DNA from: Cumulibacter soli
Lineage (GTDB): Bacteria; Actinomycetota; Actinomycetes; Mycobacteriales; Antricoccaceae
Direction: 5' to 3'
Assembly: GCF_004382795.1 (NCBI RefSeq)
Contig: NZ_SMSG01000007.1
Coordinates: forward strand, 1 to 64,000
DNA: 64,000 nt
The position numbers and the translations under genes are program-made. The notes under the pieces were generated by a model. It had not been told where the DNA came from. It saw nothing but the letters and a program-made list of their open reading frames with translations, and ran no database searches. The number at the start of each line of letters is the position of its first letter. Positions within the stretch are counted from its first letter, which is position 1. Shown here piece by piece: positions 11,034 through 30,314 of the stretch.

Positions 11034-12611
11034 ATGGGGCGGTCAGCATCTTTGACTGCAGCGCTACTGGGCGTTGGCTTGATCCTGGCCGGATGCGGTG
11101 ACGCACCGAGCAACGAGACTGCAGACGTAGGTGAGTATCCGTTCGAACTGCCGCTCGAGGATGACTTCGATCCGAACGCCGAGTTCCGGTACGGATACAA
11201 CACCGTCTTGTCAGGATGGGACCCGACCAAGAGCGTGAGCGGCGCTGAACTGGTCTGGTATGCACCGGTATACGACCGGCTGTTGTGGGTGGATGAGAAC
11301 GGCGAATTGCAGCCGATGTTGGCCACGCAGTGGGAGCCGTCCGAAGACCTGTCCTCATTGACGCTGACGCTCCGGGAGGGCCTCACCTTCTCGGACGGGG
11401 CGCCGTTCAATGCCGAAGCGGTCAAGTTCAACATCGAGCGAACGGCAGCCGAAGAGAGCACCCTTGCCGGGGAGCTACAGCAAGTCAGCAGCGTTGAGGT
11501 CGTCGACGAGTACGTCGTGAAAATCAACGTGACCGGCGGCCTCGGCTCGTTATCGGTCGCCTTGGCGGCACGTCCTGGGATCATGGTGTCGCCGGAGGCG
11601 GTGGAGTCCGGTTCGCTCGATGATGCACCAGCCGGAATCGGCCCGTACGTGATGACCGAAACGGTCGCGGGCGACTACGCGACGTTCGAAAAGTCGGCGG
11701 ACTACTGGGCTCCAGAGGCGCAGAACGTCGCCAAGCGGACCTACCAGTACATGCCGGATGACCAGACACGCTACAACGCGTTGGCCAGCGGCGAGGTGGA
11801 CGGCGTGTCGATGTCACCGACGATGCTCGACGACGCCCAGCGCGCCGGCCTGCAATCGACGGCTCGCCCGACCGGGCTTTTCCTCTTCCTCGCGCTGAAC
11901 TCCGCCGAGGGCGAGTTGGACAACCCGGAGGTGATGAAGGCGATCAACATGGCGATCGATCGAGAGGCCATCTCCGATGGGCTCTATGACGGACTGTGCG
12001 TACCGCAAATACAGCCCTTTGCCCAAGACAGCCCCGGTTACAGCGACGACCTCGGCCCAGGATTGGACGTTTTCCCGTATGACCCGGATGCGGCCAAGGA
12101 AATCCTCGCCGAGCAGGGTGTGGAGAGTCTGTCGCTCAGCGCAGTGACTCCCAACGTCACGATCTACACGAAATTTGCCGAAGCCGTTCAAGCGCAACTC
12201 GGCGACATCGGCATCGACGTTTCAGTCTCGCCCAAACCCTCGGCCCAGATCGTCGAAGACTTCACCATCACCAAGTCAGAGAACGCCATGGCGTCGGTCT
12301 ACACCGGGATCGCCGACCCCGACGGGGTCGTTCAGCAGTTCCTGACACCCGAGGCGCGGTACAACCCCGGCGGAACGACCTACGACACGCTGATCGAACT
12401 CGCCGAGCAGGGTGCTGCTCCGGTGGATCCTGCCGAGCGGAACGCTGCCTATGTCAAATTCATGGACGCGTGGGCAGATGCGCCACCGCACGTCGTCCCA
12501 GCCTGCATGATCTACATCGCGGCCTCGTTCAGCGAGGAGGTCTCGGGTGTGCTGCAAACAGCCGGCGGGATCACCGATCTCTTGCGCAACGTGGCAATAA
12601 CTCCCGCCTGA
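11034..12611 (+). CDS. ABC transporter substrate-binding lipoprotein, family 5 (peptide/nickel type)
   Basis: This 525-residue secreted protein has a lipoprotein signal peptide ending in LILAGC, with Cys21 as the lipidation site. The mature part matches DppA/OppA-type binding proteins: YAPVYDRLLWVDENGELQPMLATQWEPS near the N-terminus and LTLREGLTFSDGAPFNAEAVKFNIER. It would catch a small molecule outside the membrane. No permease or ATPase gene is adjacent, so it must use a transporter encoded elsewhere. It lies 49 bases after the DUF35 gene on the same strand and may deliver the substrate of that CoA pathway. AAAGGA before the ATG is a good ribosome binding site. Confidence 0.9.
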   Translation: MGRSASLTAALLGVGLILAGCGDAPSNETADVGEYPFELPLEDDFDPNAEFRYGYNTVLSGWDPTKSVSGAELVWYAPVYDRLLWVDENGELQPMLATQWEPSEDLSSLTLTLREGLTFSDGAPFNAEAVKFNIERTAAEESTLAGELQQVSSVEVVDEYVVKINVTGGLGSLSVALAARPGIMVSPEAVESGSLDDAPAGIGPYVMTETVAGDYATFEKSADYWAPEAQNVAKRTYQYMPDDQTRYNALASGEVDGVSMSPTMLDDAQRAGLQSTARPTGLFLFLALNSAEGELDNPEVMKAINMAIDREAISDGLYDGLCVPQIQPFAQDSPGYSDDLGPGLDVFPYDPDAAKEILAEQGVESLSLSAVTPNVTIYTKFAEAVQAQLGDIGIDVSVSPKPSAQIVEDFTITKSENAMASVYTGIADPDGVVQQFLTPEARYNPGGTTYDTLIELAEQGAAPVDPAERNAAYVKFMDAWADAPPHVVPACMIYIAASFSEEVSGVLQTAGGITDLLRNVAITPA

Positions 12612-25749: not shown

Positions 25750-25834
25750 ACGAGCCCTGAGCCTTATCGCGCACGGATGGGCAGACTTGGGGCTGGACGG
25801 CGGGCAGAACGAGCCCTGAGCGTTACAGCGCGCG
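25750..25834. repeat. Imperfect 26-bp direct repeat at the 3' end of the ABC permease gene
   Basis: Bases 25750-25775 and 25809-25834 match at 22 of 26 positions, both starting ACGAGCCCTGAG. The inner copy includes the stop of the minus-strand permease; the other lies downstream of it. This resembles, in weaker form, the gene-end duplication at 1182-1293. Confidence 0.5.
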
Positions 25835-26980
25835 AGCCAGGCTGCGGCGTAGCAACCAACTGCCCAACACCAGCAGCACGACGGCCATCGCGGCGAGTAC
25901 ACCGAGCATGGGCAGTATGTCGACCAGTCCCCCGCCGTGCCGCTGGACCTCCGCGAAGGCGTCGTAGCCCCAGGCGTGCGGGGTGATGTGCGCGATCTTG
26001 CGCATCGAGTCGGAGAAGATTTCCAACGGCACCATCCCACCTCCGATCGCGGCCAGCACGAGCCCAATCCCAACGCCGGCGCCCACCGCGGCACCGTCGC
26101 TGTCCAGCGCCGAACCGAGCACCATAGATGCCCCTGCGGCGACGAGCGCTACCGCAGCGAGTATCAGGAGCGAGAGCGCGAGATTGCCCCAATCGACGCC
26201 AAATAGCAACCAGGACGCGAGCATGATGTAAGCGCCCTGGAAGACCGCGATTGCCCACCGCCCCAAGACCTGCCCGAGCACGACATGCAACGCGTTCACG
26301 GGTGCGGCGAGCGTCCGCGCCAGCACGCCCTCGCGCCGCGCGCTGATCAGCGTCGAGGCCCCCGCGAGCGATGTGAGGAAGACGAACAGCAGCAGTTGCG
26401 AGGACGCTCCCAGGTCGAATTGACCCAGCCCTTGAAATTCCTGCGCAATTTCGTCGACGTCGGTGACGACGAGCTGCGGTCCGCCGTCCGCCGGCAACGC
26501 ATCGAGCGCTGCGGACGCATCATCGGCCCCGGCACCCGCGGCCTGCAGGGCATCGAGTTGGTGCGCGCGCAGGTCCAGCGATGTGACCGCCACGCGGATC
26601 TGTTCGGCCACCGCGGCGCTGCTGGAATCCGATCCGGAGATCAGGGTGATGTCGGTCGGATCCCCCGCGGCGTACGCCGCAGTGGCTTGCTCGGACAGAT
26701 CGATTCCGGCGCTGGAGCGTCCGCGCGCCACCTGCGCGAGCATCTCGTCGTGCTCGGCGAACTCGACCTCCAGCCCAGAATCTTCAAGTTCGGCAACGAG
26801 TTCGGAACGTAGTTCTCCATCGGCGCCGCTGACGGTGACCGTCGACGACGGACCGCCACCGAACTGCGAACCGATCACGAATACCAGCAGCAGCGGCAGG
26901 ATGAATACGAAGAAGATGTTGCCCTTGTCCGCTACGAAGCGCTTCAGTTCGGCGATCGCGATCGCGAGTATGGCGCTCAT
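25823..26980 (-). CDS. ABC-2 type exporter permease
   Basis: This 385-residue ABC-2 permease has an N-terminal helix (FFVFILPLLLVFVIGSQF), a large extracytoplasmic loop (about residues 45-205) and five further helices in the C-terminal half, including LILAAVALVAAGASMVLGSAL. It overlaps the preceding permease gene by four bases (ATGA) and is the third gene of an ATPase-permease-permease operon. Such systems export drugs, lipids or peptides. The substrate is unknown. Confidence 0.92.
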   Translation of the reverse strand: MSAILAIAIAELKRFVADKGNIFFVFILPLLLVFVIGSQFGGGPSSTVTVSGADGELRSELVAELEDSGLEVEFAEHDEMLAQVARGRSSAGIDLSEQATAAYAAGDPTDITLISGSDSSSAAVAEQIRVAVTSLDLRAHQLDALQAAGAGADDASAALDALPADGGPQLVVTDVDEIAQEFQGLGQFDLGASSQLLLFVFLTSLAGASTLISARREGVLARTLAAPVNALHVVLGQVLGRWAIAVFQGAYIMLASWLLFGVDWGNLALSLLILAAVALVAAGASMVLGSALDSDGAAVGAGVGIGLVLAAIGGGMVPLEIFSDSMRKIAHITPHAWGYDAFAEVQRHGGGLVDILPMLGVLAAMAVVLLVLGSWLLRRSLARAL

Positions 26981-28131
26981 CCGCGCGCTCCCCGGTCAGG
27001 AACCAGCCGGGCAATCAGGGCGGCCACCACCGCGAAGCCCAGCATGATCGCAACTGGCGCACCGACGTCACTCAATCCCCCGCCACCACTGGAGATGCCC
27101 AGTCCACGCACCAGCGCGGCCACCGGGTTCAGGTCAAGAATCGCACCGATCACGCCGGACGCGCTGAACTGCACGAAAGCGCCGCCCGCGATACCGAGCA
27201 CCATCGCCAGCATGGTCTGGATGATGTTGGCCTGCTCGGCAGTTTTCGCCAATCGCGCCACGATGAACGTGAGCGCGGTCGTCGCGAGCACCGCGCACAC
27301 GATCAGCACGGCGACCACCAGCGCCGAGCCGAAATCAACATCGAACAGCAGGCCACCGGTGATCAGCAGCACCGAGGTGGCCACAACGCCCAGCACGAAG
27401 GAGCTGATGGCCTTCGCTAGCACCGGGAACATCCGCGGCATGGGCATCGAGTACAGCCGCGCCAACGTGCCGTTCTGGCGTTCCTCCATCAGCGCGAGCA
27501 CACCAAAACTGACGGTGAACATCAAGAACAACCCGGCCTGCCCAGCGACCAGCGCACCGCTTGGGTCGAGTTGCTCGGAAGACGCCTGTCCCTCGGTCAG
27601 GCTGACCGCGCTTTGACTACTCAGAACCTCCTGCACGATCGCGTCAGGCTGGATACCGAGCTCTCCGGCGGCCTGCGCGGCATTCGCGGCGGCACCAACC
27701 CGATCCAGATAGCCCTGCACCGCCGAAAGCACCACGTCCGATTCGAGCCCGGCACCGTCACCCTCGATGACGTCCAACTGGCTCGGTTCGGCAGCGATCG
27801 CGGCGTCGGTAAAGCCATCCGGGACGATGATGCCCAGCTTCGCGTCGCCGGATTCGGCGAGTTCGTGCACTTCTTCGGCGTCCGCCGCCGTCACCTCGAT
27901 GTCGATGCCGAGCTGCGGCAGCATCTCCTCCAGCGCCTGCCCGAGCTGATCGTTTTCGGGCACTGAGATCGCCACGGTGGCCTTCTGCAGTTCCTGGTTC
28001 ATCGCGCCACCGATAACGAAGTTCAGCGCGATCATCAGCCCTAGTGGTACGCCGATCGCGAAGATCAACACGGACTTATCACGGATCCGCTGGCGCAGGT
28101 CCGCGATGACCAAGGTGAGCAGTTGCGCCAT
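26977..28131 (-). CDS. ABC-2 type exporter permease
   Basis: This 384-residue ABC-2 permease has the same layout as its neighbour: a first helix (VLIFAIGVPLGLMIALNFVIGG), a large outer loop with acidic patches, and a C-terminal set of helices (AGLFLMFTVSFGVLALM, and later MVLGIAGGAFVQF). The two permeases probably form a heterodimer. The ATPase stop is two bases upstream and its own stop overlaps the next permease by four bases. This ties the three genes into one transcript. Confidence 0.92.
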   Translation of the reverse strand: MAQLLTLVIADLRQRIRDKSVLIFAIGVPLGLMIALNFVIGGAMNQELQKATVAISVPENDQLGQALEEMLPQLGIDIEVTAADAEEVHELAESGDAKLGIIVPDGFTDAAIAAEPSQLDVIEGDGAGLESDVVLSAVQGYLDRVGAAANAAQAAGELGIQPDAIVQEVLSSQSAVSLTEGQASSEQLDPSGALVAGQAGLFLMFTVSFGVLALMEERQNGTLARLYSMPMPRMFPVLAKAISSFVLGVVATSVLLITGGLLFDVDFGSALVVAVLIVCAVLATTALTFIVARLAKTAEQANIIQTMLAMVLGIAGGAFVQFSASGVIGAILDLNPVAALVRGLGISSGGGGLSDVGAPVAIMLGFAVVAALIARLVPDRGARG

Positions 28132-28133
28132 CC

Positions 28134-29111
28134 TCAGTCCCGCAAGGCTTTGCCGGTCAGGTGCAGGAAGACCGCTTCTAGGTTGGGCCGGCTGACCTGA
28201 ACGTCAGCCAGTCGCATCCCGGCGGACGTCGCCTCGGTGACGATCTGCGCGATTGCGGCGGGCGCGTCTCGGACCGTGAGTCGCAATCCGCCGGAATCCT
28301 GCTCGACCCGCGATACCCGCTCTAAGTCGCGCAATGCGCCGGCGGCTGCCGCTAGCTCTCCGGTGCCGCGCAGGTCGATGTGATCGACCCCGCCGGTGAG
28401 CGTGATCAGTTCATCCCGGGTGCCCTCGGCTTGGAATCTTCCGGAATCGATGATCGCGATCCGGTCGCACAGCCGTTCGGCTTCCTCCATGTAGTGAGTC
28501 GTATAGAGGACGGCCATACCTTCGCCCGCCAGCGCCTCGACGCTCTCCAGGATCGCGTTACGTGACTGCGGGTCGACGCCGACAGTCGGCTCATCGAGAA
28601 TCAGCAAACGTGGTCGATGCAGCAGCCCGATACCGATATTCAGCCGCCGTTGCATACCGCCGGAGAACTCCTTGACGGCACCCTTCGCGCGGTCGGCTAA
28701 CCCCACCAGGTCGAGGATCTCATCGACGCGCTTACGCAGGTGCGCCCCGGTGATCCGTTGCAGGCGGCCAAAGTAGCGCAGATTGTCACGCGCGCTGATG
28801 TCCGGGTAGATGGCCATTTCTTGAGGCACGAGCCCGATGTGTCGCTTGGGAGCAATCGCGTGCGGGCCCATGCGCTCACCGACCACACTCACCGAACCTT
28901 CGTCGGCACCCAATAGTCCGGCAATCATCGAAATAGCGGTGGTTTTCCCCGCGCCGTTAGGCCCGAGCAATCCGTAGGTCTCGCCCGCGGCGATCTGAAA
29001 GGAAACCCCGTCCACGGCGACCCGTTCGCCGAAAGACTTTCGTAACTCCGACACGAGCAGTGTCGGCTGGTCGGTACTGAGTCGCGCGGTGCTGGTTTCG
29101 GTCTGCGGCAC
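28134..29111 (-). CDS. ABC exporter ATP-binding protein
   Basis: This 325-residue ATPase has Walker A GLLGPNGAGKTT (about residues 47-58), signature FSGGMQRRLNIG, Walker B RLLILDEPTVGVD and the switch His in TTHYME. The C-terminal 90 residues match the extra domain of drug and antibiotic exporters. It starts at a GTG (29111) with GGGAG upstream and is the first gene of the exporter operon. The 126-base gap to the divergent DinB gene must hold both promoters. It energises the two ABC-2 permeases that follow. Confidence 0.94.
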   Translation of the reverse strand: MPQTETSTARLSTDQPTLLVSELRKSFGERVAVDGVSFQIAAGETYGLLGPNGAGKTTAISMIAGLLGADEGSVSVVGERMGPHAIAPKRHIGLVPQEMAIYPDISARDNLRYFGRLQRITGAHLRKRVDEILDLVGLADRAKGAVKEFSGGMQRRLNIGIGLLHRPRLLILDEPTVGVDPQSRNAILESVEALAGEGMAVLYTTHYMEEAERLCDRIAIIDSGRFQAEGTRDELITLTGGVDHIDLRGTGELAAAAGALRDLERVSRVEQDSGGLRLTVRDAPAAIAQIVTEATSAGMRLADVQVSRPNLEAVFLHLTGKALRD

Positions 29112-29237
29112 ACTTACTCCCGCGGTCGGTCTGGTCGCTGCGGATTGTCACCTGACATCGGTAACCCTCTCATACGTCCGCCGTCCGCCGATGTAGTTGA
29201 AGTGGCACGCGCCGCGTGGGCCTGTCAGGATCTAGGT

Positions 29238-30314
29238 ATGGCCACCGCAGCGGTCGATTTCTCCAGGATCTTGCACGTCGACCTCGACCAATTCCAAGTC
29301 TCGGTCGAGCGCCGGCGCAACCCGTCGCTCGTCGGGCAGGTCGTCGTGATCGGCGGCAACGGGGATCCGACGGAAGCGCGCAAGGTGGTGACCTGTGCGT
29401 CGTACGAGGCGCGCTCGCTTGGTGTGCACGCGGGCATGCCGTTGCGTGCGGCGTACCGCAAGATCCCTGATGCGGTATGGCTGCCGGTCGACCAACAAGC
29501 CTATGAGGACGCCTCGGCGCAGGTGATGGATACGCTGCGCGAAGTGGCGCCCGCCGTCGAAGTATGGGGATGGGACGAGGCGTTCGCCGGGACCGATTCG
29601 ACCGATCCGGTCGCGCTGGCGACCGCGGTACGTCAGAGGGTGCACGAGCAGACCTCGCTGGCGTGCGCGGTAGGGGTCAGCGACAACAAGCAGCGCGCCA
29701 AAATGGCCACCGGATTCGCCAAACAGACCGATGCAAGAATCTTCGTACTCGACGAGCAGAACTGGCTGCCGCTGATGGGCGATCGGCCGTGCATCGACCT
29801 GTGGAGCGTCGGGCCGCGGATCTCCGCACGATTAGACGCAATCGGGGTGCACACTGTGTCCGAGTTGATCGACACTCCACGCGAGGTGCTGCTGGATGCA
29901 TTCGGCCAACACCAGGGCACGTGGCTGTACGTGCTCTCACGCGGATGGGGCGACCGCAGCATCACGACAGTCCCCGAGGCGGCCAAGTCTCACAGCAAGG
30001 TGGAGACTTTCGCGGAGGATCTGCGCGGATACGATGAAATGGCGGGCCAACTCAGGCGGCTCACGGCCGAACTGCACCAGCAAATCCTGCGGGAGAACCG
30101 GATCGTGTTTCGCGTCGCCGTGACGATACGAACAGTGACCTTCTGGACCAGAACCAAGTCACACAAATTGGCTGAGCCAACCACAGAACTGGACGTTCTG
30201 GAACGCGAAGTCCTTGCATTACTGACCAAATTCGAGGTTGAGAAACCAGTTCGACTACTCGGGCCCCGCTTCGATCTTCTACCCGTGGACGAGACGGTGA
30301 CCGGGCCGCCGTAA
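29238..30314 (+). CDS. Y-family DNA polymerase IV, DinB2-like, with Gln at the steric gate
   Basis: This 358-residue translesion polymerase has catalytic acids Asp15 and Asp17 in HVDLDQFQVSVE and Asp113-Glu114 in EVWGWDEAF. KVVTCASYEARSLGVHAGMP is the finger region and SDNKQRAKMATGFAK the palm, followed by thumb and little finger. HVDLDQF and the WGWDEA form match mycobacterial DinB2-type enzymes. At the steric-gate position, where most DinB have Phe/Tyr and DinB2 has Leu, this protein has Gln20 (codon 29295-29297). I chose the ATG at 29238, after AGGATCTAGGT; the frame is open upstream to 29145. It is transcribed alone and lacks a visible LexA box. Confidence 0.92.
   Translation: MATAAVDFSRILHVDLDQFQVSVERRRNPSLVGQVVVIGGNGDPTEARKVVTCASYEARSLGVHAGMPLRAAYRKIPDAVWLPVDQQAYEDASAQVMDTLREVAPAVEVWGWDEAFAGTDSTDPVALATAVRQRVHEQTSLACAVGVSDNKQRAKMATGFAKQTDARIFVLDEQNWLPLMGDRPCIDLWSVGPRISARLDAIGVHTVSELIDTPREVLLDAFGQHQGTWLYVLSRGWGDRSITTVPEAAKSHSKVETFAEDLRGYDEMAGQLRRLTAELHQQILRENRIVFRVAVTIRTVTFWTRTKSHKLAEPTTELDVLEREVLALLTKFEVEKPVRLLGPRFDLLPVDETVTGPP

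Follow-up and report, generated by a model that had tools for sequence, protein, structure and literature searches.

DNA polymerases are generally considered to select the sugar by means of a steric gate, to which recent work has added a polar filter, a Thr residue that pulls the incoming nucleotide to the enzyme surface and thereby causes its 2'-OH to clash. We take Cys47 to be the residue at the polar-filter site of Mycobacterium smegmatis DinB2 (MsDinB2). A 2019 study by Johnson et al. reportedly placed this site at Thr43 in Pol IV and at Cys47 in MsDinB2. The steric gate of MsDinB2 has been defined by experiment as Leu14: RNA synthesis is kept by L14A and lost with L14F, and the DinB1 variants F23L and F23A gain RNA synthesis (PMC4176160). 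Together, these outcomes indicate that loss of the aromatic ring opens the gate. The use of rNTPs by DinB2 has been ascribed to a permissive gate combined with a missing polar filter (PMC10159617). Only Leu, Ile, and Val gates are given in the 2014 DinB2 survey (PMC4176160), and we found no report in the open literature of a Gln-gated Y-family polymerase, including any with measured sugar selectivity. Here, we describe such a protein, encoded in a window (the whole stretch of DNA analysed) of 64,000 nucleotides from Cumulibacter soli.

An intact DinB2-class polymerase

The gene forms a single open frame, intact from its ATG at 29238 to the stop codon at 30312-30314 (Table 1). The encoded protein scores 472 bits against the NCBIfam model NF002883 (PRK03352), well above the cut-off of 330, and falls below the cut-off of every remaining NCBIfam DinB model, leaving NF002883 as the only model passed. 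Matches to Pfam IMS (128 bits) and IMS_C (57 bits), together with the residues D15, D113, and E114, identify it as a member of the Y-family. All three acids are invariant among relatives, confirming that the palm acids are intact, as originally predicted. D17, the second Asp of the motif, is presumably not among the three metal ligands.

The nearest solved structures are those of MsDinB2, also known as MsDpo4 (PDB: 4DEZ, 6JUL-6JUO; phmmer E 1e-109), with about 52% identity over 342-348 aligned columns and an ungapped catalytic N-terminus. An AlphaFold2 (AF2) model of the window protein (mean pLDDT 90, pTM 0.72) has its best PDB matches in MsDpo4 (6JUM-6JUL, TM 0.86-0.88) and shows the same fold. 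The NF002883 score and these closest matches bear out the DinB2-like identity that had been proposed. The window protein and MsDinB2 share Cys at the polar-filter site, the catalytic acids, and the fold, but differ at the gate, which is Gln20 in the former and Leu14 in the latter, and at position 25, where the window protein has Arg and MsDinB2 has Leu.

The genome also encodes a Phe-gated DinB1, RNase HII, and Ku. This DinB1 (G000:C6:36532-37554) has the same Y-family palm and catalytic acids as the window protein, but its gate is Phe (HVDMDAFFVSVE), its filter is Thr (VVSTASYEAR), and the two proteins are only 33% identical; compared with the genus's DinB1-type proteins overall, the window protein reaches 33-35%. 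A third, weak Y-family match (L003, G000:C2:360664-360933; IMS 33.5 bits, profile 19-112), in which the usual D-x-D is absent from the stretch read, is perhaps an ImuB-like accessory protein.

Table 1. Coordinates of the dinB2-class gene and its key elements within the window
Feature	Position	Strand	Basis or remark
dinB2-class Y-family DNA polymerase gene	29238..30314	+	358 aa plus stop; NCBIfam, Pfam, phmmer, AF2 model
CAGGAT, 6 bases 5' of ATG	29226..29231	+	Kept in 3/3 species of the genus (upstream alignment)
Codon Asp15 (GAC), first metal-binding carboxylate	29280..29282	+	Sequence; invariant among relatives
Codon Gln20 (CAA), steric-gate position, equivalent to MsDinB2 Leu14	29295..29297	+	Sequence, alignment
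Codon Arg25, second residue tracking the gate	29310..29312	+	Leu25 in 54/54 Leu/Cys enzymes, never with Gln
Codon Cys53 (TGT), polar-filter position, equivalent to MsDinB2 Cys47	29394..29396	+	Ungapped alignment with 4DEZ
Codons Asp113-Glu114 (GAC GAG), catalytic carboxylates, GWDEA motif	29574..29579	+	Invariant among relatives

Genomic context

In the arrangement CAGGAT-N6-ATG at the start of the gene, CAGGAT may belong to a ribosome-binding site, or it may be a -10 element giving rise to a leaderless transcript. No SOS box was found upstream of dinB2, the only nearby match having three mismatches and lying inside the ORF (29293-29308), and we therefore see no evidence for LexA control. This agrees with the reported absence of DNA-damage induction for mycobacterial dinB2. 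Across the window, the actinobacterial SOS box is matched loosely (≤3 mismatches) at 67 sites, compared with 44 expected from shuffles, an excess that is probably due to coding-sequence bias; the best match (11143-11158) has one mismatch. Divergent from dinB2, the minus strand at 25823-29111 carries genes for a DrrA-like ATPase and two ABC-2 permeases, a set resembling antibiotic or drug exporters.

Glutamine at the steric-gate position

The gate motif of the window protein is ILHVDLDQFQVSVE. Gln20 lies five residues past the metal-binding Asp15, matching the D8/F13 spacing of E. coli Pol IV (PMC4176160). The alignment with 4DEZ is gap-free from residue 11 to about residue 120 and superimposes Q20 on Leu14 and C53 on Cys47 of MsDinB2. 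The entry 6JUO, which has Tyr at the gate (DQFYASVE), aligns identically, giving the PDB set an aromatic gate at the equivalent position. The original assignment of the gate to residue 20, and its identity as Gln, therefore hold, and the gate does not lie elsewhere. The window protein thus has the non-aromatic gate of the DinB2 class, distinct from both the aromatic (Phe/Tyr) gate of DinB1 and Pol IV and the Leu gate of the DinB2 clade of Ordonez et al. 2014.

Relatives were gathered from genus and family searches, from draws of 399 genomes across the order and 395 across the class, and from 80 genome loci, using protein searches in place of a short degenerate DNA pattern that was too unspecific over the order. 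One of the six probes in the 80-locus search was HVDLDQFQ, which biases that search to Gln and enriches the resulting 229-protein sample accordingly. The 229 readable proteins of the DinB2 class divide into 76 with a Gln gate, 75 with Leu, 72 with Ile, and 6 with Val, none having an aromatic residue; the even draws plus the genus and family searches (n = 154) yield 27, 49, 72, and 6, respectively. Every locus read from Gordonia (32), Williamsia (15), and Jongsikchunia (1) carries Gln, as do all nine from genus g21, all three species of the window's own genus, and part of Mycobacterium. The gate codon in Gln-gated relatives is CAG or CAA. A Gln-specific DNA pattern matched 7 of 396 genomes in a draw of the phylum, all of them within the window's own order, and no Gln gate was found outside this order in that draw. 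Plasmid and phage records contained no close relative: identity was 42-47% for three records in the plasmid collection and did not exceed about 32% for phage DinBs. Among 55 members sharing Q..VER, 35 of 358 positions are invariant, Gln20 included, a figure that measures divergence elsewhere only, as the members were picked for Gln.

The view of Gln as unusual stands relative to DinB as a whole, but not within the DinB2 class of the window's own order (76/229 in the enriched sample). DinB taken as a whole is not the appropriate yardstick for a class in which aromatic gates do not occur. Nor is Gln the isolated oddity it had appeared to be, as it is a fixed state across the lineage, still reaching 27/154 in the even draws. 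The Gln gate is a natural, conserved, and apparently unreported gate state, ordinary for this lineage however odd it looks in a single gene.

Loss of the second sugar filter

Every Gln-gated enzyme also has Cys at the second sugar-selecting site (C53, equivalent to Cys47), a position that the original prediction missed although it was right about the DinB2-like class, the gate, and the acids. Gate/filter pairs among the 229 proteins are Gln/Cys (76, comprising all 76 Gln enzymes), Leu/Cys (54), Leu/Thr (20), Ile/Thr (67), Val/Thr (6), Ile/Gly (4), Leu/Ser (1), and Ile/Ser (1). By the ungapped alignment, the window protein shows the Cys-for-Thr replacement of the MsDinB2-like subgroup. Residue 25 (residue 19 in MsDinB2) also tracks the gate within the Cys clade (Table 1).

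The independent changes on the tree are few, five for Gln/non-Gln and three for Cys/non-Cys, and a sign test of joint gate and filter change has one informative independent pair and is hence powerless. As the Gln-Cys pairing rests on so few events, it may reflect shared ancestry.

The DinB2-like polymerases of other Actinomycetes with Ile, Leu, or Val gates belong to the same class and likewise have a non-aromatic gate, but differ from the window protein in that their gate is aliphatic and their filter mostly Thr. Thr is nearly always kept at the filter site of Ile- or Val-gated relatives, and it is retained by most Actinomycetes enzymes whose gate is Ile or Val, or Leu in genera other than Mycobacterium. 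Consequently, it may be wrong to assume that every DinB2-like enzyme with an aliphatic gate matches the rNTP permissiveness of MsDinB2.

Evolutionary history

In a tree of the DinB2 class rooted on DinB1, Ile/Thr enzymes lie at the base. An equal-rates model assigns Gln (0.81) and Cys (0.78) to the base of a 61-sequence clade (support 97/96), and the MsDinB2-type Leu/Cys mycobacterial enzymes nest inside a mostly Gln/Cys clade. This order, with Leu/Cys nested in Gln/Cys, is probable but not proven, the two intermediate forks being supported at 93/74 and 93/77. We found 12 Gln-gated Mycobacterium proteins, plus one (L134 in genome G365) that lies inside the Leu (CTG) Mycobacterium group and has Gln (CAG) together with Arg25, so that both residues have changed. 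At the gate, the Gln and Leu codons CAG and CTG are one base apart.

The window gene pairs with a Williamsia sequence inside the Gordonia/Williamsia clade (support 100/99), and two other genera of the window's family carry Val/Thr enzymes of the DinB2 class. These two observations make horizontal acquisition probable, and the genus probably gained dinB2 before its three species diverged, the donor resembling Gordonia/Williamsia. The gene order dinB2-gCA-lsr2, comprising a hexapeptide-repeat gCA-like gene and lsr2, is kept in the genus and differs from that at the Gordonia/Williamsia loci. A separate case is genus g5 of family f3, whose DinB2 enzymes are of the Gln/Cys, Leu/Ser, Leu/Thr, and Ile/Thr types, a variety that suggests repeated horizontal exchange.

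Proposed mechanism and alternatives

We propose that the window enzyme is a ribonucleotide-tolerant translesion/repair polymerase of the DinB2 class that, like MsDinB2, would lack both known sugar filters, and we consider this reading likely. A flexible, non-aromatic Gln (Q20) stands in place of the bulky aromatic steric gate, and Cys (C53) in place of the Thr polar filter. From this combination we would expect, with reasonable confidence, that rNMP insertion is at least moderately good. The presence of Cys53 besides Gln20 makes rNTP tolerance likelier than Gln20 would by itself. The tolerance itself is extrapolated from the characterised Leu14/Cys47 relative; the gate position, catalytic residues, fold, and conservation were observed directly. 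Interchange of Gln and Leu within the Cys-filter clade would be expected if the two residues were roughly equivalent, but it could also mark a functional change, which would count against a permissive gate. More speculatively, the enzyme might act in gap filling or lesion bypass at low dNTP, following the 'ribo patch' idea (PMC4176160), and the incorporated ribonucleotides could later be removed by the RNase HII encoded in the genome.

Alternatively, Gln20 could restore sugar discrimination, at least as a partial gate, with its amide placed across C2' to exclude rNTPs and compensate for the lost Thr filter. The steric gate of A-family polymerases is Glu (PMC4176160), which shows that a long polar side chain is able to block the 2'-OH and speaks against a permissive gate. 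Compensation would also produce the observed restriction of Gln to enzymes that have lost the polar filter (76/76), and all the Gordonia and Williamsia sequences read carry Gln. We nevertheless regard such blocking as unlikely: Leu/Cys enzymes, which have neither filter, persist across Mycobacterium, where compensation is not required, close relatives swap Gln and Leu, and Gln has no rigid ring of the kind introduced by Phe, with which MsDinB2 turns selective (PMC4176160).

Less probable still is a proposal in which Gln20 hydrogen-bonds the 2'-OH, so that rNTPs are preferred or equalised and the enzyme would be a Y-family member adapted to RNA-like synthesis. RNA polymerases, which recognise the 2'-OH by polar side chains, offer a precedent, and conservation of Gln extends over a deep clade, as does the loss of the polar filter. 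The bond is purely hypothetical, however, and the AF2 model is ligand-free. We would give similarly slim chances to an extension in which a clade with this bond prefers rNTPs or does not distinguish them, and an ancestor of this kind gave rise to the studied Leu enzyme of mycobacteria.

That the gene is decaying, or that it reflects faulty annotation or sequencing, can be dismissed: Gln recurs in each of the three species of the genus, which excludes a sequencing error at Gln20, and in dozens of independent assemblies, the frame is full-length, the catalytic residues are intact, and the gene order is kept in the genus.

Implications for sugar selection in the DinB2 class

On the proposed reading, a whole Gln-gated clade has neither filter. 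The sole characterised enzyme, of the Leu/Cys type, may belong to an unrepresentative branch, and most DinB2-like enzymes, in which the Thr filter is kept, may discriminate better than assumed. The class offers the natural gate/filter combinations Gln/Cys, Leu/Cys, Leu/Thr, Ile/Thr, and Val/Thr, and the relative weight of the gate and the polar filter thereby becomes testable with natural enzymes.
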